64,000 bases of DNA from Saccharospirillum mangrovi. Its GTDB lineage: Bacteria > Pseudomonadota > Gammaproteobacteria > Pseudomonadales > Natronospirillaceae. Location of the stretch: the NCBI RefSeq assembly GCF_003367315.1, contig NZ_CP031415.1, positions 2,168,001-2,232,000 of the forward strand, in the 5' to 3' direction. Position 1 is the stretch's first letter, and the number at the start of each line of letters is the position of its first letter. Below are positions 22,325 through 39,084 of this stretch, in pieces. Below the pieces are notes generated by a model. It ran no database searches. It worked only from the letters and a program-made list of their open reading frames with translations, and was not told the origin of the DNA. A program made the position numbers and the translations under genes.

Positions 22325-23065
22325 TCACAGCCAGAGTCGGCCGATGGGCAGGTCGGGATCGTAGCGGTGAGCAATTTGCGCCTGCAGCAACTCAGCGGAC
22401 GCCAGCGCGTCCATCAACGCATGGTGCGGTGGGTAATACGGCAGATGGTAGCGCTCCCGGCTGTCGGCCAGGCGAATCGACACCGGCCGGCGGCCCAGCA
22501 ACCGCCGCCACAGGCTCATCGAGCTCTGCCGATGCCGTTGCGCTTCGATCTCCATGGTATCGACCACCGGAAACTCGATGCTTTTCCCCAACCGCAACTG
22601 CAAGGCCGCTTCAAAGAAGCCGCGCTCGATTGTCCGGTGATGCACCACCACGACCCGGCCGGCGAGCGCCTGCAACAAGTCGCTGAGGATGTCGCTTAAA
22701 TCGGGCGCCTGGGTCAAATCGGAGTCGGTGATGTGGTGAAAAGTGACCGACTGTTTGAGCAACGGCCGCTGCGGTTGCACCAACCAATGTCGGCTTTGCG
22801 GTAACTGAATGCGTTGCAGCGTGAATGGCACCACACCAATGCTGACAATGGCGTGTCGCTGCGGGTTGAGCCCGGTGGTCTCAAAATCCATGGCCGCGAA
22901 CGGCACGTCACTCAATGGCGTCTGCGGGCTCACCATGCCGGCGCCGTAGTAGGCGCGCAGCCGTGGGTCGCGCGCCTGGGCGTGCAACTGCGCAAAGCGT
23001 GCCTGCCAGTCCAGGCCGGTATCGATGGGCAGCGTTTGCTCCGGCGGTGGTAACGGCGGTGCCAT
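22325..23065 (-). CDS. DEDDh-type 3'-5' exonuclease (DnaQ-like)
   Basis: The 246-residue protein has the exonuclease motifs in order: MDFETTG (about residue 59; Asp and Glu), TFHHITDSD, HHRTIERGFFE (His-x-x-x-Asp region, with Glu in place of the usual Asp) and HHALMDALASAEL (catalytic His and Asp). Such proteins resemble the epsilon subunit or RNase T, but the substrate is not known. It begins within the stop of the upstream CBS/nucleotidyltransferase gene (TGATG), so the two are co-translated. The groESL heat-shock promoter lies just past its stop. Confidence 0.9.
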   Translation of the reverse strand: MAPPLPPPEQTLPIDTGLDWQARFAQLHAQARDPRLRAYYGAGMVSPQTPLSDVPFAAMDFETTGLNPQRHAIVSIGVVPFTLQRIQLPQSRHWLVQPQRPLLKQSVTFHHITDSDLTQAPDLSDILSDLLQALAGRVVVVHHRTIERGFFEAALQLRLGKSIEFPVVDTMEIEAQRHRQSSMSLWRRLLGRRPVSIRLADSRERYHLPYYPPHHALMDALASAELLQAQIAHRYDPDLPIGRLWL

Positions 23066-24930
23066 CAGCCGATCCGGTTCACTTGATAGCGCATGCGCAA
23101 AAACTTCTGGGCGTTGCTGATCACTTCAAAAGCGTCTTTCAGATTGCGCCGTTCGAACTGTGTCAGATGTTCCGGCTCGACGTTGTTGTCCGGCTCGCGC
23201 CCGGCTTCGATGTCCAGCGCCTGATGGCGCGCTCGCACCACGGCGATGAACTCCAGCGCATCGCGCAGATCATCGCCATTGCTGTGGCCGAGAATGCGTG
23301 AGTCGGCGATGTCTTTCAGCCGGTTGAACGAATTTTGCGCGATCGACCCGCAGGCCAGCGCGTGCACCCGGATCACATCCGACAGCGGCGCCGTACCACG
23401 CCGTTTCAGATTGATGGAGTTGTTGTGCTTGCCGTCTTTTTCCATCACGAAGGTGCGGAAAAACCCGAGTGGCGGTGTGCGATTCAGGGCATTGCGCGCC
23501 AATGCTGCCAGGAACAACGGCCGTTGCCGGGCGCGATCAGCAACCAGTCGCTTCAGGCTGTCGGCAAAAGCGACTTCACCATAGACGCCATCGAGGTCGA
23601 AAAAGATCGACGAATTCAGCAAGGCGCGCGGATCGGGCTTGTCGATCCAGTCGGTGAAGTATTGCTTCCAGACCGACAACGGCTGCCGCCAATGCGGGTT
23701 GGTCGCCATGATGCCGCCTTTGCAGTAGCTGTAACCGCAGGCCGCCAGGCCATCGCTGACGCGCGCTGCCAGTTGATGGAAATAGGCGTCGTGCTGTTTC
23801 GGATCAAAGCGGTCGTCGAGCACCAGGGCGTTGTCCTGATCGGTGATGATGAACTGCTCGTCACGCGCCATCGACCCGGCCGCGAGAAAACAATACGGAA
23901 CCGGCGGCGGCCCCAGTTCCGCTTCGGCCAATTCCAGCAAGCGACGGGTAAAGCTGCGACCAATGCCGGCCATGGCGCTGCCGATCATGTGCGAATTGGC
24001 GTCTTCGTTGACCATGCGCACAAAGGCGGCTTTGGCTTCAGGCACGAGTTCGGCCAATTCTTCCGCCGACTGACGATGATGAATGTGGCTGACGATGTAG
24101 AGGCTCGACTGCGACTCGTAACGAATGATGTCCGACAGCCCGACCACGCCAATGGTTTCGTCGCGTTGTTTGACCGGCAGGTGATGCACGTTGTGGCGCA
24201 GCATCAACAGCATGGCCTCGAACACAAAGGCATCGCTGGGAATACTGATAACGTCACTCGACATGATGGCGCTGACCGGCGTGTCGTAACCCAGTCCTTT
24301 GGCCAGCACGCGGGTGCGCAAATCGCGGTCGGTGATAATGCCGACAATGGCGTTGCTGCCATCTTCCGCGCTGATCAACAGCGACGACACCCCTTCGTCG
24401 GTCATCAACTGGGCAGCCTGTTGCAACGTTGCCGACTGCGCGACCCGGACCAGATCGCGCGACAATAATTTGTCGAGGCGCGAGGTCATCAGTTCATTAT
24501 TCTGCTCGCGCTCCACCACCGCCGAACGCAACCGGGACGGATCGTCAATTTCAACAAAGTCGGCGAACACTTCCTGCGCTTCCCACAACTTATGGAACAG
24601 CTCAGCCTTGATGTAATAAATGAGGGTGTCTTCAATCGCTTTGACCGGAAAGCGAACCGCCCGCCCCATCAGCAACGCCCACTGCCCGAAAATTTCACCT
24701 TCGGCCTGACGGTTATAAAAGTTGCCGTTGCGTCGATAGACTTCGACCGCGCCGCTGCGAATGTAATGCAGATCGGAAATTTCCTGACCGAATTTGAGAA
24801 TGGTCGAACCGGCTTTGAAATAGGCAATTTCCACCTGACAGGCCACCCGGTCGAGCCATTCGTCAGTCAGACTGTCGAAGGGCGCAAAACGGCGCAGGTG
24901 TTCGCGGATTTCGATCTGTTCAACTTCCAT
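23065..24930 (-). CDS. CNB-CBS-DUF294 nucleotidyltransferase-like protein
   Basis: The 621-residue multidomain protein has an N-terminal cyclic-nucleotide-binding fold (about residues 10-130; GSTILKFGQEISDLHYI and GEIFGQWALLM). A pair of CBS domains follows (about 155-270; MTDEGVSSLLI and GIITDRDLRTRVL). A DUF294 nucleotidyltransferase-like domain comes next (GSMARDEQFIITDQDNALV, with Asp residues placed as in nucleotidyltransferases). The end is a DUF294 C-terminal helical domain. It probably senses an adenine nucleotide. ATG 24930 is preferred over TTG 24972. Coupled to the exonuclease downstream. Confidence 0.9.
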   Translation of the reverse strand: MEVEQIEIREHLRRFAPFDSLTDEWLDRVACQVEIAYFKAGSTILKFGQEISDLHYIRSGAVEVYRRNGNFYNRQAEGEIFGQWALLMGRAVRFPVKAIEDTLIYYIKAELFHKLWEAQEVFADFVEIDDPSRLRSAVVEREQNNELMTSRLDKLLSRDLVRVAQSATLQQAAQLMTDEGVSSLLISAEDGSNAIVGIITDRDLRTRVLAKGLGYDTPVSAIMSSDVISIPSDAFVFEAMLLMLRHNVHHLPVKQRDETIGVVGLSDIIRYESQSSLYIVSHIHHRQSAEELAELVPEAKAAFVRMVNEDANSHMIGSAMAGIGRSFTRRLLELAEAELGPPPVPYCFLAAGSMARDEQFIITDQDNALVLDDRFDPKQHDAYFHQLAARVSDGLAACGYSYCKGGIMATNPHWRQPLSVWKQYFTDWIDKPDPRALLNSSIFFDLDGVYGEVAFADSLKRLVADRARQRPLFLAALARNALNRTPPLGFFRTFVMEKDGKHNNSINLKRRGTAPLSDVIRVHALACGSIAQNSFNRLKDIADSRILGHSNGDDLRDALEFIAVVRARHQALDIEAGREPDNNVEPEHLTQFERRNLKDAFEVISNAQKFLRMRYQVNRIG

Positions 24931-25040
24931 GGGCCAGATTGAGTGCGATGATTGGAGCGCTGAGACTGGCAATGATCCGCCGGAAAATCAATCGCCGTGC
25001 CGCGTAGCGGGTCTTGGATGTCGCGCGTTATCATGCCGCC

Positions 25041-32651: not shown

Positions 32652-33503
32652 TCAACCCGGCGACAAACCTCGCATCCGTTCGGAACGACGGCGCAGCAAT
32701 TCGAGCGTCGTCAACAACAGAATCGACAACAGCACCATCATGGTCGCCACCGCCAAAATCGTTGGGCTAATTTCTTCACGAATGCCCGACCACATTTGAA
32801 TCGGAATCGTACGTTGTTCCGGTCCACTCACAAACAACACCACCACCACTTCATCAAAGGATGTAATGAAGGCGAACAGTGCGCCAGACACAACGCCCGG
32901 CGTCACCAACGGCAGTATCACTTTAAAAAAAGTGCGCGTCGGATTGGCACCCAAACTCGCTGCCGCACGCGTCAGGCTGTGATCAAAACTGCTCAGCGTT
33001 GCAGTCACGGTAATCACAACAAACGGAATGCCCAGCGCGGTGTGCGCCAGAATCACACCCAAATAGGTTTGGCTTAAACCGATACGCGAGAAGAAGAAAA
33101 ACATCGCCGCACCGGAAATAATTAACGGCACAACTAAGGGCGAAATCATCAACGCCATGATGGTGTTGCGGAACGGCATGTAACGGCTCGACAAGCCCAA
33201 CGCGGCGATGGTGCCCAACACCGTCGCCAATAAGGTCGAAGCAATCGCAATTAAAATGGAATTGCGGATTGCCCCCAGCCAGGCACTGGAAGTGAAGAAG
33301 TCTTCGTACCAGCGCAACGAATAGCCGTCCGGCTGAAACGTCAGCATCGCTTCAGTGAACGTGAAGTACGGCTCGGCGTTAAAACTGAGCGGGATGATGA
33401 CCAGCAGCGGCCCAACCAAAAATAAAAAGATCAGCGCGCAAATCACCCGGAAGACGTAATACCAGACCCGTTCCGGGCCGGTTGCGTAAGAAGGCACGGC
33501 CAT
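32652..33503 (-). CDS. Pot-type ABC importer permease (PotC-like)
   Basis: Inner-membrane subunit of a polyamine-type ABC importer (family of PotC/YdcV). The 283-residue protein has about six helices and the EAA-like loop ASLGANPTRTFFKVILPLVTPG that docks to the ATPase, quoted here as ASLGANPTRTFF and KVILPLVTPG. It is the last gene of a four-gene minus-strand operon, ending at a shared terminator. Substrate could be spermidine, putrescine or a related amine; it cannot be fixed from this sequence. Confidence 0.92.
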   Translation of the reverse strand: MAVPSYATGPERVWYYVFRVICALIFLFLVGPLLVIIPLSFNAEPYFTFTEAMLTFQPDGYSLRWYEDFFTSSAWLGAIRNSILIAIASTLLATVLGTIAALGLSSRYMPFRNTIMALMISPLVVPLIISGAAMFFFFSRIGLSQTYLGVILAHTALGIPFVVITVTATLSSFDHSLTRAAASLGANPTRTFFKVILPLVTPGVVSGALFAFITSFDEVVVVLFVSGPEQRTIPIQMWSGIREEISPTILAVATMMVLLSILLLTTLELLRRRSERMRGLSPG

Positions 33504-33507
33504 CGGT

Positions 33508-34776
33508 TTACCCCAGCTTCACGTTGTCGACGCCAATCAGGCGGTTATAGATCAGATAAAAAGCAATCACCACAAACAGCAGTATCGAGGCGATGGCGGC
33601 CGCCAGGCCCCAGTTCAACGATGTCTGCATGTGATAGGCAATAAAGTTGGTGATGAAAATACCGTCCTGCCCGCCGACCAACGCTGGCGTGATGTAGTAC
33701 CCAATGGCGAGGATAAACACCAGAATGGAACCTGCGCCGATGCCCGGTATCGTCAGCGGGAAATAGACGCGTCGGAACGCCAGGAATGGCCGCGCGCCTA
33801 AGGATCGCGCCGCGCGCATGTAATACGGCGGAATCGTCTTCATTACTGAATACAGCGGCAGAATCATGAACGGCAACAGGATGTGCGTCATGGCAACCAG
33901 CGTGCCGGTTTTGTTGTAGATCATCGACAAGCGGCTGTCTTCATCGAGCAAGCCGAGGCCGACAAAGATGTCGTTCAGAATGCCCTGCTGTTGCAGGATG
34001 GCAATCCAGGTGGTGGTACGCACCAGCAAGGATGTCCAGAACGGCAGCAACACCAGAATCATCAATAAATTCGAGTAACGCAGTGGCGTATTGGCTAGCA
34101 AAAATGCAATCGGATAACCGAGCAGCAAACACAGGCCGGTAATGGCCATACTCATCCAGAAAGTACGCACAAATAATTGCTGATAAATCTGTAGATATTC
34201 CGGCTGTTCGACAATGTCGCCGTTGCTGTCGAATTTTAAATCCACAGCCGCGAGATAATAAGACAGGGTGTACGGATTGGACTCGCGTTTAATCAGGCGC
34301 CAGATGTCTATATCGGCCCAATCTTCATCGATGTCCAGGACGGCCTCTTTGTATGGGCCGCTTTCGATGCGTCCGGTACGACGGGCGGTCTTGGTGATCA
34401 ACGACCGCATACCGGAAATTTCATAATTCAATCGGCTGGCGACCAGACCCAGATTGCGAGCCGCCGCGCCTTCTTTCAAATCTTGCACCAGTGCTTCGAA
34501 AACCGCTTCATCCGGTACCGAGTCACCGTCCCAATCTTGTAATTGAGCAACAGTGCGCGACAGCTGTGTATGGACTTCGGGGTTATCGACACTGCGTTTG
34601 AGCATATCCAGGATCGGCATCACAAAGGCGATGACCAGAAACAGCAGCAAGGGTGCCACCAGTAAAAACGCGCGTATTTGATTGCGTCGGTTGGTCCGCA
34701 TCAGGCTGACTTTCAAAGGTACGCCATTGGCCGTCGTCAGGCCTTTTCCAGTTCGGCTCACGCTGTTTTCAGTCAC
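33508..34776 (-). CDS. Pot-type ABC importer permease with enlarged periplasmic loop (PotB-like)
   Basis: Partner permease of the Pot-type importer. At 422 residues it is about 130 longer than PotB, because a polar segment (about residues 55-190) sits between the first helix and the rest. This segment is acidic and includes LQDWDGDSVPDEAVFEALVQ. The C-terminal half has the normal permease core and the EAA-type loop ARSLGARPFLAFRRVYFPLT. GTG 34776 is preferred over TTG 34782, because AGGA lies 7 nt before it. Confidence 0.9.
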   Translation of the reverse strand: MTENSVSRTGKGLTTANGVPLKVSLMRTNRRNQIRAFLLVAPLLLFLVIAFVMPILDMLKRSVDNPEVHTQLSRTVAQLQDWDGDSVPDEAVFEALVQDLKEGAAARNLGLVASRLNYEISGMRSLITKTARRTGRIESGPYKEAVLDIDEDWADIDIWRLIKRESNPYTLSYYLAAVDLKFDSNGDIVEQPEYLQIYQQLFVRTFWMSMAITGLCLLLGYPIAFLLANTPLRYSNLLMILVLLPFWTSLLVRTTTWIAILQQQGILNDIFVGLGLLDEDSRLSMIYNKTGTLVAMTHILLPFMILPLYSVMKTIPPYYMRAARSLGARPFLAFRRVYFPLTIPGIGAGSILVFILAIGYYITPALVGGQDGIFITNFIAYHMQTSLNWGLAAAIASILLFVVIAFYLIYNRLIGVDNVKLG

Positions 34777-34809
34777 ATTCAAATCCTGTACGGAAGGTAT
34801 TAAAGAAAT

Positions 34810-34838
34810 GGAACCGGGACGATCTCAGTCCCGGTTCC
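34810..34838 (-). promoter_or_regulatory. Intercistronic hairpin between binding-protein and permease genes
   Basis: Perfect 11-bp stem GGAACCGGGAC (34810-34820) with GTCCCGGTTCC (34828-34838), loop of 7 nt, in the 86-bp gap. There is no T-run beyond TTTCTTT on the minus strand. It is consistent with a processing or mRNA-stability element that keeps the binding-protein message more abundant than the permease message. Confidence 0.6.
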
Positions 34839-34862
34839 AGCCCTGAACGGACGCTCGTTCGA

Positions 34863-35960
34863 TCAGCGAGCCAACCAGGCGTTGAAACGCTGGTTCAGTT
34901 CGTCACCGTAGTCCGCCCAGAACTCATCGTTCTTCTGAATGGCGGTGGCGAAGTTCGGGCCATAGGTCGGCATGTGCGGCTTCATGTCGATGCCGGTGTC
35001 AGCGTGTGTGCTCACTTGTGAAGCAGAAGAGGCACGGGCCGGGCCGTAGGAGATGTACTTGGCCTGGTCTGCCAGACGCTGAGTGTCGGTAGAGAACGCC
35101 AGGTAATCAGCGACCTTGTCCAATTTGCCTTTCGGTACTACCCAACCATCCAGCTCGAACACTTGCTTGTCCCAGATGATTTCGAACGGCTGACCTTCGT
35201 TGACCGCGGCATTGAACAGGCGACCGTTATAGGCGGAGGCAAAAACCACTTCACCGTCTGCCAGCAACTGCGGCGGCTGTGCACCTTCTTCCCACCAGAT
35301 GACGTGATCTTTGATGGTGTCCAGTTTGGCAAAGGCACGCTGAATACCTTCTTCGGTTTCCAGAACGTCATACACGTCTTCGGTGGCCACACCGTCCGCC
35401 ATCAACGCCCATTCCAGGTTGTTGATCGGCGCTTTTTGCAAGGCGCGCATGCCCGGGAAGTCTTCCAGGTTGAACACGTCTTCCATCAGGAACGGCTGGT
35501 TGTCGGCCGGGAAGGCTTCGGTGTTGTAGCCGATGACGTTGGAATAAACGATCGTCGGTACAAAGCACTCGGTCAGTGAACCTTCGATGAAGTCAGCCGT
35601 CGGCAAGGTGCCATCCGGTGCGGCGGACAACAGAGCATCGTGATCAAGTGGTTCAACCAGGCCTTCGTCGCAGGCGATGATGGCATCGGCCGGCAGAATA
35701 TCGACCAGATCCCAGGTGATGTTACCGGCCTGGGCCTGAGCACGCAGACCCGCCAGTGCGTTGGCAGAACGGTCGATGTTTACGATCTCGTCGCCCGTCA
35801 TTTCCATCCAGGGTTCGTGATAAGCCCGTTGCTGGCTCATGGTGTAGGCGCCACCCCAGGATACGATGTTCAGGGTGTCGGCTTGGGCAACGCTGATGCC
35901 CAGCGACAATGCCGCCAGACCGACGAGCGCCTTGGGCACAATTTCCGTCTTCGCTTTCAT
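34863..35960 (-). CDS. Pot-type periplasmic substrate-binding protein
   Basis: Binds the transported solute and delivers it to the permeases. The 365-residue protein has a signal peptide (about residues 1-27, ending SVAQA), then the family start DTLNIVSWGGAYTMSQQ. Other features are DLVDILPADAIIACDEGLVE and VIWWEEGAQPPQLLADGEV, typical of COG0687 proteins. Trp and acidic residues that could form an amine-binding site are present (IIWDKQVFELDGW), but the specificity is inferred. AGGAG lies 8 nt upstream. Second gene of the operon. Confidence 0.92.
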   Translation of the reverse strand: MKAKTEIVPKALVGLAALSLGISVAQADTLNIVSWGGAYTMSQQRAYHEPWMEMTGDEIVNIDRSANALAGLRAQAQAGNITWDLVDILPADAIIACDEGLVEPLDHDALLSAAPDGTLPTADFIEGSLTECFVPTIVYSNVIGYNTEAFPADNQPFLMEDVFNLEDFPGMRALQKAPINNLEWALMADGVATEDVYDVLETEEGIQRAFAKLDTIKDHVIWWEEGAQPPQLLADGEVVFASAYNGRLFNAAVNEGQPFEIIWDKQVFELDGWVVPKGKLDKVADYLAFSTDTQRLADQAKYISYGPARASSASQVSTHADTGIDMKPHMPTYGPNFATAIQKNDEFWADYGDELNQRFNAWLAR

Positions 35961-36035
35961 GGTTGAGTCTCCTGCATAGTTGACCGGTGAATTCCGGTTT
36001 TATGATGGTGCTTATAATTGGGATGCGTTCAGAGG

Positions 36036-37115
36036 TTACGCATCAAGGGCTCGACAATCGGCGTGGGACCAGCCCACCCGAATTTTCTGACCACGCTTGA
36101 GCGATTGCTGTTCGACCGAGTTTGGCGTCTTCACCACAAACTCGTCGTTGCCGCAAACCGACACCCGCGTGCGCAGATGATCACCGAGGTAAATCACATC
36201 TTTCACCTCAGCATCGAAGATGTTGGGCAGTGCGCCGTTATCCGGATTAATCACCACCCGTTCGGGACGAATCGACAGCGTTGAATTCTGGCCGGTGCTA
36301 TCGACCGCCACTGGCGTAGCCGCAATCAGACTGCCGTCCGGCAGACGCACCCGACATTGGCCGTCGGCCAGTTCAGCCACTTCACCGCCGAAGCGATTGT
36401 TCTCACCGACGAAGGACGCAACAAAGGCATTTTCCGGGCGTTCATAAAGTTCGTCCGGTGTTGCCAACTGCTGCACGACTCCGTCGTTAAAGACAGCAAT
36501 GCGATCCGACATGGTCAGCGCTTCGCCTTGATCGTGCGTTACGTAAATCATCGCCACGTTCAATTCTTCGTGAATGCGCTTGATCTCCAGCTGCATTTCT
36601 TCACGCAGATTTTTATCCAGCGCGCCCAGCGGCTCGTCCATCAACACCAACTCGGGTTCGAACACCAACGCCCGGGCCAAGGCCACGCGTTGTTGCTGAC
36701 CGCCGGACAACTGCGCCGGGCGGCGATTCTCAAACCCCTGCAAGCGCACCATGCCCAACGCCTTGTCGACTTTTTCCTGAATGACGCTCTTGCTGAAACC
36801 ACGAACTTCCAACGGGAAGGCCAGGTTTTCAGCGACACTCATGTGCGGGAACAAAGCGTAATTCTGGAACACCATGCCAATGCCGCGTTTGTGCGGAGGC
36901 AGGCGGGTGATGGGTTCGTTCTTAAGCAGAATCTGACCATGAGTCGGCGTTTCAAAACCCGCCATCATCATCAGACAAGTGGTTTTGCCGGAGCCGGAAG
37001 GCCCCAATAAGGTCACAAATTCACCTGGATCAATGTCCAGATTGAAATCCTTCACGACCAGGGAAATACCGTCATAACTTTTCTGAACGTTCTTGAATTT
37101 GGCGAATGGCTCCAC
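36036..37115 (-). CDS. Pot-type ABC importer ATPase (PotA-like)
   Basis: Energises the importer. The 359-residue protein has Walker A GPSGSGKTT (about residue 40), the Q-loop MVFQNYALFPH, the signature LSGGQQQRVALARAL, Walker B ELVLMDEPLGALD and the switch His in YVTHDQGEALTM. A C-terminal TOBE domain follows (about 280-359; LSIRPERVVINPD). It is first in the operon, with AGGA 8 nt before the ATG. The order ATPase, binding protein, two permeases is common for this class. Confidence 0.94.
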   Translation of the reverse strand: MEPFAKFKNVQKSYDGISLVVKDFNLDIDPGEFVTLLGPSGSGKTTCLMMMAGFETPTHGQILLKNEPITRLPPHKRGIGMVFQNYALFPHMSVAENLAFPLEVRGFSKSVIQEKVDKALGMVRLQGFENRRPAQLSGGQQQRVALARALVFEPELVLMDEPLGALDKNLREEMQLEIKRIHEELNVAMIYVTHDQGEALTMSDRIAVFNDGVVQQLATPDELYERPENAFVASFVGENNRFGGEVAELADGQCRVRLPDGSLIAATPVAVDSTGQNSTLSIRPERVVINPDNGALPNIFDAEVKDVIYLGDHLRTRVSVCGNDEFVVKTPNSVEQQSLKRGQKIRVGWSHADCRALDA

Positions 37116-37452: not shown

Positions 37453-39084
37453 TCAGGCCCGCGGCTCGGTCCGCAACCCTTGGAAAAGGGTGAAACAGCC
37501 GAACAGCAGCACCAGCGTAAATGGCAAGCCGGTGGATACGGCCATCGCCTGCAACGCTGCCAGACCACCGCCGAGAATCAGCGCAATTGCCAGCAAGCCT
37601 TCGAACGACGCCCAGAACACCCGTTGCGGTGTTGGCGCTTCCATCTTGCCGCCAGCGGTGATGGTGTCGATCACCAGCGAGCCGGAATCCGACGAGGTCA
37701 CGAAGAAGACGATGACCAGGATGATGGCAATAAACGAAGTGATCTCCGACAACGGCATCGCCGCCAGCATTTCAAACAAACGCAAATCCAGACCGGCGTC
37801 CGCCACGGCGGTGTAGCCGTCATTGATGAACTGGTGAATGGCGGTGCCACCGAAAGCGCTCATCCAGAACGCGCAGACCAGAGACGGAATCAACAACACA
37901 CAGATGATGAATTCACGTACCGTCCGACCACGCGAAACCCGCGCGATGAACATGCCGACGAAAGGCGACCAGGAAATCCACCAGGCCCAATAGAAGGAAG
38001 TCCAGCCCTGACTGAAATTGCTGTCTTCACGAGCAAACGGCACCGACAGTGCGGTGAAGTTTTTGGCGTACGACCAGAGGTCGCCGAAGAAACCGGAGAG
38101 GATAGCCAGCGTCGGGCCGACCAGCACCACAAACAGCAGCAGCAGAATGGCCAGACCCATATTGATTTCGGATAAGCGTTTAACGCCTTTTTCCAAACCG
38201 GCCACGACTGAGAACAGTGCAATCGAGGTGATGCCGAGCACCAGGATGACCTGAGTGGTCGTGCCCAGCGGAATACCGAACAACGCATTCAGACCGGCCG
38301 CAGCCTGCGCCGAACCCAGACCCAACGACGTCGCCAAACCAAAGATGGTGGAGAACACCGCCAGAATATCGATCACATGGCCCGGCCAACCCCAGACACG
38401 CTCACCCAAAACCGGGTAGAAGATGGAGCGCACGGTCAGCGGCAAACCCTTGTTGTAGGAAAACAGTGCCAGCCCCAACGCCAGGATGGCGTAGATAGCC
38501 CAGGGGTGCAGACTCCAGTGATAGATGGCGGCAGACATGCCGAGATTAGCGGCAGCCTGAGCATCGCCCGCCGCTGCACCCAATGGCGCCCAATCAGAGC
38601 GCATGCCGCCATCGCCCAAAGCAGTGCCACCGAGTGACGATTGGAAATGACTCATCGGTTCAGACACGCCATAGAACATCAGACCGATGCCCATACCGGC
38701 GGCGAACAACATGGCAAACCAGCCCGCGTAGGTATAGTCCGGCTTGGCTTCGGTGCCGCCCAGCCGCACTTTGCCCAGCGGCGACAGCACCAGCACAATG
38801 CACATCAGCACAAAGATGTTGCCGCTGAGCAGGAAGAACCAATCGAAGTTGGTGTACAGCCAGGACAGCAAGCCCTGGAACAAAGGCCCTACGCTGTCCT
38901 GAAACACCAGCGTCAGAAAGACGAAGGCTACGATCACCAGGCCGGAAATCAGGAAAACCCGGTTGTGAATGTCCAGGCCGAACGGGCCAATACTCATCTG
39001 AATATTGTCCTGCCCCACCTGATAATCGGTATCGATCGGATTCGCCGCTCCTTCCGGAGGGATCATATCCGTGTTATCGGTCAT
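37453..39084 (-). CDS. BCCT-family transporter (betaine/choline/carnitine type)
   Basis: Secondary transporter for quaternary ammonium osmolytes such as glycine betaine. The 543-residue protein has about 12 helices and the family motifs AAGMGIGLMFYGVSEPMSHF (Gly-rich TM helix) and FYWAWWISWSPFVGMFIARV (Trp box). MGIGL has the Gly-rich Na+-type pattern (Na+-symport likely, not proven). The C-terminal tail after the last helix is very short, so an osmosensing tail like that of BetP is absent. AGAGGA lies 7 nt before the ATG. Confidence 0.93.
   Translation of the reverse strand: MTDNTDMIPPEGAANPIDTDYQVGQDNIQMSIGPFGLDIHNRVFLISGLVIVAFVFLTLVFQDSVGPLFQGLLSWLYTNFDWFFLLSGNIFVLMCIVLVLSPLGKVRLGGTEAKPDYTYAGWFAMLFAAGMGIGLMFYGVSEPMSHFQSSLGGTALGDGGMRSDWAPLGAAAGDAQAAANLGMSAAIYHWSLHPWAIYAILALGLALFSYNKGLPLTVRSIFYPVLGERVWGWPGHVIDILAVFSTIFGLATSLGLGSAQAAAGLNALFGIPLGTTTQVILVLGITSIALFSVVAGLEKGVKRLSEINMGLAILLLLFVVLVGPTLAILSGFFGDLWSYAKNFTALSVPFAREDSNFSQGWTSFYWAWWISWSPFVGMFIARVSRGRTVREFIICVLLIPSLVCAFWMSAFGGTAIHQFINDGYTAVADAGLDLRLFEMLAAMPLSEITSFIAIILVIVFFVTSSDSGSLVIDTITAGGKMEAPTPQRVFWASFEGLLAIALILGGGLAALQAMAVSTGLPFTLVLLFGCFTLFQGLRTEPRA

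Follow-up and report, generated by a model that had tools for sequence, protein, structure and literature searches.

What might an exonuclease and a multidomain protein with a nucleotidyltransferase-like domain do together, when the stop codon of one gene runs into the start codon of the other? The question is raised by a gene pair of Saccharospirillum mangrovi, in a stretch of 64,000 nucleotides analysed here as a whole (the window). DUF294 domains such as that of the first protein are common in Pseudomonadota, though what they do biochemically is not settled in the literature found. The pair is laid out as follows.

23065-24930, minus strand: the DUF294 gene, encoding 621 amino acids with the domain order CNB-CBS-CBS-DUF294-DUF294_C (ORF list and Pfam)
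22325-23065, minus strand: the exonuclease gene, encoding 246 amino acids from an ATG start, with an RNase_T domain; NCBIfam NF006602 (PRK09146)
23063-23067, minus strand: the TGATG stop/start overlap between the two genes, read from the sequence

The overlap on which the original prediction was built is indeed present on the minus strand, where the TGA stop of the DUF294 gene and the ATG start of the exonuclease gene have one base in common. The start of the DUF294 protein was placed at a conserved ATG, the MEVEQIEI start being common to its relatives, while the mechanical ORF is longer and reaches a TTG at 24972. The domains that had been read by eye (an exonuclease; CNB, CBS and nucleotidyltransferase-like domains) were all recovered by Pfam above the curated cut-offs, with 48.3 bits for cNMP_binding, 80.2 bits for CBS (two stretches), 165.8 bits for DUF294 (PF03445; cut-off 21) and 154.4 bits for DUF294_C (PF10335; cut-off 22.5) in the first protein, and 60.2 bits for RNase_T (cut-off 24) in the second, which also matches NF006602 with 356 bits (cut-off 266). 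A divergent ApbA/PanE-like gene (Pfam) lies upstream of the pair, while downstream the ORFs alone suggest genes like groES, groEL and gspD. Of the relatives that have a name, Saccharospirillum sp. MSK14-1 comes nearest, at 90% identity.

Is the pairing a constant one? We assembled 112 DUF294 proteins. Two are those of the window genome; 27 came from a search with the window protein, a subset biased to its near kin; and the remaining 83 belong to 80 regions drawn from a sample of 200 genomes of the phylum, in which about two dozen lower-scoring places were left out. The Pfam DUF294 cut-off was exceeded in 157 of these 200 Pseudomonadota genomes, GlnD-type matches included. An exonuclease lies less than 1 kb from 97 of the 112 DUF294 proteins (71/83 in the phylum sample alone), downstream and on the same strand in 94 of these cases, and only six of 103 exonuclease matches, in 1,687,856 bases, were found away from a DUF294 gene, so that the pairing exceeds what chance would give. 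Among 85 aligned pairs the two ORFs overlap or abut in 28 (gap of zero or less) and are 1-50 bases apart in another 44. The order-level sample of 244 genomes gave the same picture: a DUF294 protein of the window type (E of 1e-175 or better) was found in 48 genomes, and every one of these has a strong NF006602 match (45 over the cut-off, three at 255-259 bits). Among the other 196 genomes the cut-off was exceeded in seven, all of one genus (g13), and in the two of these that were examined (G142, G158) a DUF294 gene stands beside the exonuclease. The two genes adjoin at 46 of 47 order-sample loci, the 47th lying at a contig edge with the exonuclease at its very end; one further locus (L186, in G396) was left out of the count, as the fetched stretch cut its DUF294 gene. 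The original prediction had named co-occurrence as its own check and habitual separation of the two genes as grounds for abandoning it, and the genes are habitually linked. Fifteen of the 112 DUF294 proteins are without an exonuclease nearby, and for 12 of these the sequence extends 1 kb or more to either side, so that in such genomes the eraser, the part in which we cast the exonuclease below, would have to be dispensable or replaced.

Individual loci showed further arrangements. Six DUF294 proteins (L079, L085 and L086, which are of one family, with L070, L090 and L094) form a clade in which the exonuclease was not detected, the room at L090 and L094 being too little to exclude one; in three members of this clade the ORF directly downstream translates to an HSP70/DnaK-like protein. 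At L123, L124 and L131 two DUF294 genes diverge from an intergenic stretch of 118-328 bp, exonuclease and SSF-type genes being close by. In L113 (4859-11054) the DUF294 gene, whose over-extended ORF is overlapped by an SSF-type gene, is followed by a 900-residue ORF reading as an SSF-type sensor histidine kinase and then by the exonuclease. The DUF294 gene of L154 (G462) contains one in-frame TAG stop.

Both proteins retain their active sites. The window DUF294 protein carries the signature GS-x-A-R-x-E ... D-Q-D-N (G352, S353, R356, E358, D364 and D366) and a third acid, D445, and so has the G[GS] ... D-x-D active site with third acid of GlnE/GlnD/DrrA-like enzymes. Loss of the catalytic Asp residues had been given as the other ground for dropping the original prediction; D364 and D366 are present in 112/112 aligned proteins, as are G352, R356 and Q365, with S353 in 111, E358 in 105, and position 445 occupied by Asp in 108 and Glu in four. 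Seven further residues to which we assign no role (C403, G405, M408, G451, K509, R521, R537) are likewise invariant in all 112. In the exonuclease, the active-site residues are D60, E62, E147, H214 and D219, of which D60, E62, H214 and D219 are found in 85/85 aligned sequences, and an acid stands at position 147 in all 85 (Glu in 52, the window included, and Asp in 33). With the RNase_T profile and the Exo I-III residues the protein belongs to the DEDDh superfamily, as predicted, although its Exo II residue is not the canonical Asp, and the enzyme is spelled DEEDh, a spelling shared with coronavirus nsp14. A degenerate, non-catalytic pair was considered and ruled out on the invariance of the active-site residues in both aligned sets.

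On what might such a nucleotidyltransferase act? In an AlphaFold model of the DUF294 protein (mean pLDDT 83.5, pTM 0.57) the domains are good, while their mutual placement is uncertain. Foldseek returned GlnE 1v4a (E 7.1e-8) and DrrA 6yx5 (E 1.1e-7) among CBS and CNB matches, and the first three ranks in VIA-align were the GlnE AR domain 1v4a (Z 25.8, 335 residues aligned, rmsd 4.0), the GlnE AT domain 3k7d (Z 24.6, 305 aligned, rmsd 3.3) and DrrA 6yx5 (Z 23.4, 300 aligned, rmsd 4.1), all three of which we take to be enzymes that adenylylate or deadenylylate proteins. By structural alignment the nucleotidyltransferase domain is followed by a helical domain, arranged as in GlnE/GlnD/DrrA-like enzymes, and PF03445 also matches the genome's own GlnD, which has the R-x-E ... 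D-x-D signature in common with the window protein. No RNA-type or small-molecule nucleotidyltransferase was among the 50 VIA-align matches listed, an absence that proves nothing since CNB and CBS matches fill that list. Compared by sequence with the PDB on its own, the nucleotidyltransferase half gave nothing useful (one match, E 0.24). As modelled, the nucleotidyltransferase half is closest to GlnE and DrrA among the solved structures compared, and a survey of the HEPN superfamily, in its available portion, had already grouped DUF294_C with GlnD/GlnE and DrrA (PMC3710099). We consider protein nucleotidylation the probable activity of the first enzyme.

The sensor domains should be judged separately, as the notion of nucleotide sensing is better founded for the CBS part than for the CNB part. 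A Glu in the phosphate-binding cassette of CNB domains normally holds cAMP. The window protein has Gln83 in its place, the Glu occurs in 1/36 members of the window clade and is outside the five commonest residues in 105 rows, and cAMP sensing was rejected on this cassette, which makes control by cAMP doubtful. Adenine-nucleotide-binding CBS pairs carry a G-x-h-[ST]-x-x-D motif, and this adenosine motif is kept in CBS1 (GIITDRD, that is G-x-h-T-x-x-D; G197 in 108, T200 in 106 and D203 in 97 of 111), while CBS2 of the window protein is without the motif T/S. For control of the nuclease itself by these domains, which the original prediction entertained, the analysis gave no support.

An action on RNA would be an alternative, in which the exonuclease degrades or trims mRNAs or small RNAs of transporter or central-metabolism genes and the nucleotidyltransferase adds 3' nucleotides to these RNAs, giving control by tailing and trimming. 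The PDB chains nearest to the exonuclease are of the PolC/DnaQ type, RNase T and oligoribonuclease matching less well, and Henriquez et al., in the available part of their report, speculate that the Pseudomonas putida homologue PP_0353 degrades mRNA (PMC9927547). The nucleotidyltransferase half, however, can be aligned over at least 300 residues with GlnE and DrrA, whose substrates are proteins, and Pfam found no RNA-binding domain, so we regard this explanation as unlikely.

The strongest functional clue, which had no place in the original prediction, is a linkage to sodium-coupled transporters. Of the 112 DUF294 genes, 44 have an SSF symporter and 17 a BCCT transporter within 3 kb. In a tree of the DUF294 proteins, built by a quick search in which long branches were flagged, the window clade (36 rows, SH-aLRT 100) takes in every one of the 16 rows labelled BCCT, as well as L096, which has both families, and the exonuclease is present in 36/36 of the clade; other branches adjoin sodium:solute symporters (SSF). 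Within the window branch the BCCT transporter is the only consistently recurrent neighbour besides the exonuclease: clustering of the neighbours at 46 loci gave the exonuclease at 42 and BCCT at 32, and the only other clusters reaching six loci were sensor-like (9) and chemoreceptor-like (6) proteins in scattered positions. Of the 47 window-branch loci of the order sample, 29 have a BCCT gene no more than 1 kb away, and the number rises to 30 at 3 kb and to 34 at 13 kb; there was no match in the fetched stretch at 13, and the Marinobacter loci have no BCCT nearby. A set of 19 genomes (about 75.8 Mb) contains 71 BCCT matches, or about 0.94 per Mb, and at this density chance would put a BCCT gene within 3 kb of fewer than one of the 47 loci, a comparison that is over-simple as the genomes are related. 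The BCCT gene is upstream on the same strand at 10 loci (5-123 bp) and downstream and convergent within 1 kb at 19, and since two unlike arrangements recur, we suggest that the linkage has been selected for.

In the window itself the transporter stands further off.

37453-39084, minus strand: BCCT-family transporter gene, the sole BCCT gene of the window genome

This gene is 12,481 bp upstream of the pair on the same strand. Where relatives have a BCCT gene immediately upstream of the pair, its product shares 71-74% identity with that of the window gene; in Saccharospirillum sp. MSK14-1, too, the single BCCT gene of the genome lies about 12.5 kb from the DUF294 gene. The window BCCT gene is the probable former operon partner of the pair, and the simplest history is that of a BCCT-DUF294-exonuclease operon split by an insertion that contains an ABC transporter as well as gcvH- and gcvP-like genes. 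The best NCBIfam match of the BCCT protein is a glycine betaine model, below whose cut-off it falls, so its substrate is putative. Among the genes that part the BCCT gene from the pair are PotABCD-like ABC transporter genes at 32652-37115 on the minus strand, whose ATPase passes the cut-off of the polyamine potA subfamily.

Besides the window gene, a PF03445 search of the window genome picked out two places, GlnD and a second protein at 168394. The second protein, of CNB/CBS/DUF294 make-up and 35% identical to that of the window, is encoded in a cluster with a DUF4212 small protein, an SSF symporter and an RNase_T protein, and the genome therefore holds two pairs of one design. For this symporter an identity as ActP was dropped, as NCBIfam assigns it to the VC_2705 family. 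The pair belongs to a known, little-studied family and is not categorically new, so that the description as an uncharacterised module was correct as far as biochemical function is concerned, which is unsettled in the literature found, and not as to genetics, since PP_0354/PP_0353 and PFLU5625 have been studied. In the portions available of the respective reports, the Pseudomonas members share an acetate regulon (CrbS/R, MxtR/ErdR) with acs and actP (PMC5715377, PMC8402216). PFLU5625 of P. fluorescens is in the CrbS/R regulon, no growth phenotype is described for it there, and nucleotidylation by proteins of its architecture had already been predicted, citing Aravind and Koonin 1999 (PMC5715377). 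The PP_0354 promoter is bound by ErdR (PMC8402216). PP_0354 and PP_0353 of P. putida KT2440 form one operon for which the accessible text gives no acetate phenotype; on pyruvate, growth is delayed by deletion of pp_0353 (the exonuclease), poorer after deletion of actP-I and unaffected by deletion of pp_0354, and the homologues in P. aeruginosa adjoin actP (PMC9927547, in part). According to the part available of a further study, PA3232-PA3235 are up in propionate-grown cells (PMC9765439).

These Pseudomonas pairs (PP_0354/PP_0353, PFLU5625, PA3233/PA3232) resemble that of the window, as far as those texts go, in the domains of the first protein, described for PFLU5625, and in the downstream exonuclease of the operon, and differ in their control by CrbR/ErdR with an ACTU motif, which the window pair does not have. 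Loci of the Pseudomonas type (L092, L107, L100) encode proteins 28-29% identical to the window protein and belong to another clade. Upstream regions were scanned with a matrix from 11 published ACTU sites and scored against shuffles. A strong motif (reached by 0/100 shuffles) was found upstream of eight loci of other branches, of which L092 and L107 carry the PFLU5625 site exactly as published. L093, a member of the window clade, had a moderate score, reached by 1/100. Membership of the window pair in the acetate regulon was rejected, its best score of 3.1 being reached by 64/100 shuffles, and ACTU at the promoter of the second pair is not convincing (22/300 as high).

Should the linkage then reflect shared regulation only, the pair being co-expressed with uptake genes on certain carbon or osmolyte sources and acting elsewhere, for example on acetyl-CoA synthetase? 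The regulon that the Pseudomonas members share with acs and actP, in the text available, would agree with this, as would the fact that the window pair no longer adjoins a transporter, but BCCT genes are repeatedly found next to such pairs in two unlike arrangements, the transporters of the various branches come from two unrelated families, and the window branch has no recurrent enzyme gene; the chance that this explanation is correct appears small. A second-messenger system, in which the nucleotidyltransferase makes a short oligonucleotide signal that the exonuclease destroys in the manner of oligoribonuclease, would account for a Pol beta-type active site paired with a DEDDh-superfamily enzyme distantly similar to oligoribonuclease and for sensor domains within the nucleotidyltransferase protein, but is very unlikely given that the helical C-terminal half aligns with GlnE/DrrA over at least 300 residues and that only the exonuclease and BCCT recur consistently nearby.

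The transporter linkage, the GlnE/DrrA-like predicted fold and the published single-deletion phenotypes, next to the conserved pairing and the intact catalytic residues, yield a concrete model, a signal-controlled nucleotidylation switch for sodium-coupled uptake, which we put forward tentatively and, taken whole, as having somewhat less than an even chance of being right. The CBS pair of the first protein would sense adenine nucleotides, its CNB-like domain being putatively degenerate; the GlnE/DrrA-like half would attach a nucleotide to a target protein, most likely a transporter or a close partner, and restrain it; and the co-translated exonuclease-fold protein would be a phosphodiesterase that removes the nucleotide, an eraser to the writer, as the HD domain is in GlnD and the AR domain in GlnE. 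In the window branch the target would be a BCCT-type transporter or a partner of it, and in other branches the system may serve SSF-type symporters. The single deletions in P. putida fit such a writer and eraser, as loss of the eraser would leave the target modified and mimic transporter loss, while loss of the writer would be invisible; this reading is ours and not that of the authors of that study, and as the P. putida pair is of another branch, its genetics may not carry over. Gene linkage, moreover, does not identify a target, and the window BCCT gene 12.5 kb off, as well as the 13 loci and Marinobacter without a nearby BCCT, count against the model. The eraser role should be viewed with particular caution, as the closest solved relatives of the exonuclease act on nucleic acids and, to our knowledge, removal of an NMP from a protein by an exonuclease fold is unprecedented. 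In the literature found, no enzymatic activity is reported for any family member.

What is new is the BCCT-associated branch, as no report linking BCCT to this architecture was found in a literature search of partial coverage, together with a testable writer/eraser reading. If this reading is correct, reversible protein nucleotidylation would reach beyond nitrogen control to the sodium-coupled uptake of nutrients and osmolytes, and a DEEDh exonuclease-fold protein would gain a role other than on nucleic acid. That it amounts to a new class of transporter control, with a GlnE/DrrA-like writer and a DEEDh eraser reversibly nucleotidylating BCCT or SSF transporters or a dedicated partner, tuned to energy through CBS and with one branch for BCCT osmolyte transporters, is rather doubtful at present.

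Among known systems, NF006602/PRK09146, the family to which the window exonuclease belongs, is named by fold only. GlnD-GlnK-AmtB would be alike in concept, as a case of transporter control through nucleotidylation. GlnD has ACT sensors and an HD eraser domain. No PII gene is among the recurrent neighbours of the window branch, in which that branch differs; for uridylylated GlnK and AmtB, a nucleotidyltransferase of the same superfamily is described, in the available text, as controlling a transporter via a nucleotidylated protein (PMC10710835). GlnE and DrrA are alike in the predicted fold of the nucleotidyltransferase half. GlnE has two nucleotidyltransferase halves and is without CNB or CBS domains, and DrrA is a Legionella protein acting on host Rab; unlike either, the window system has a separate exonuclease gene as its constant partner.
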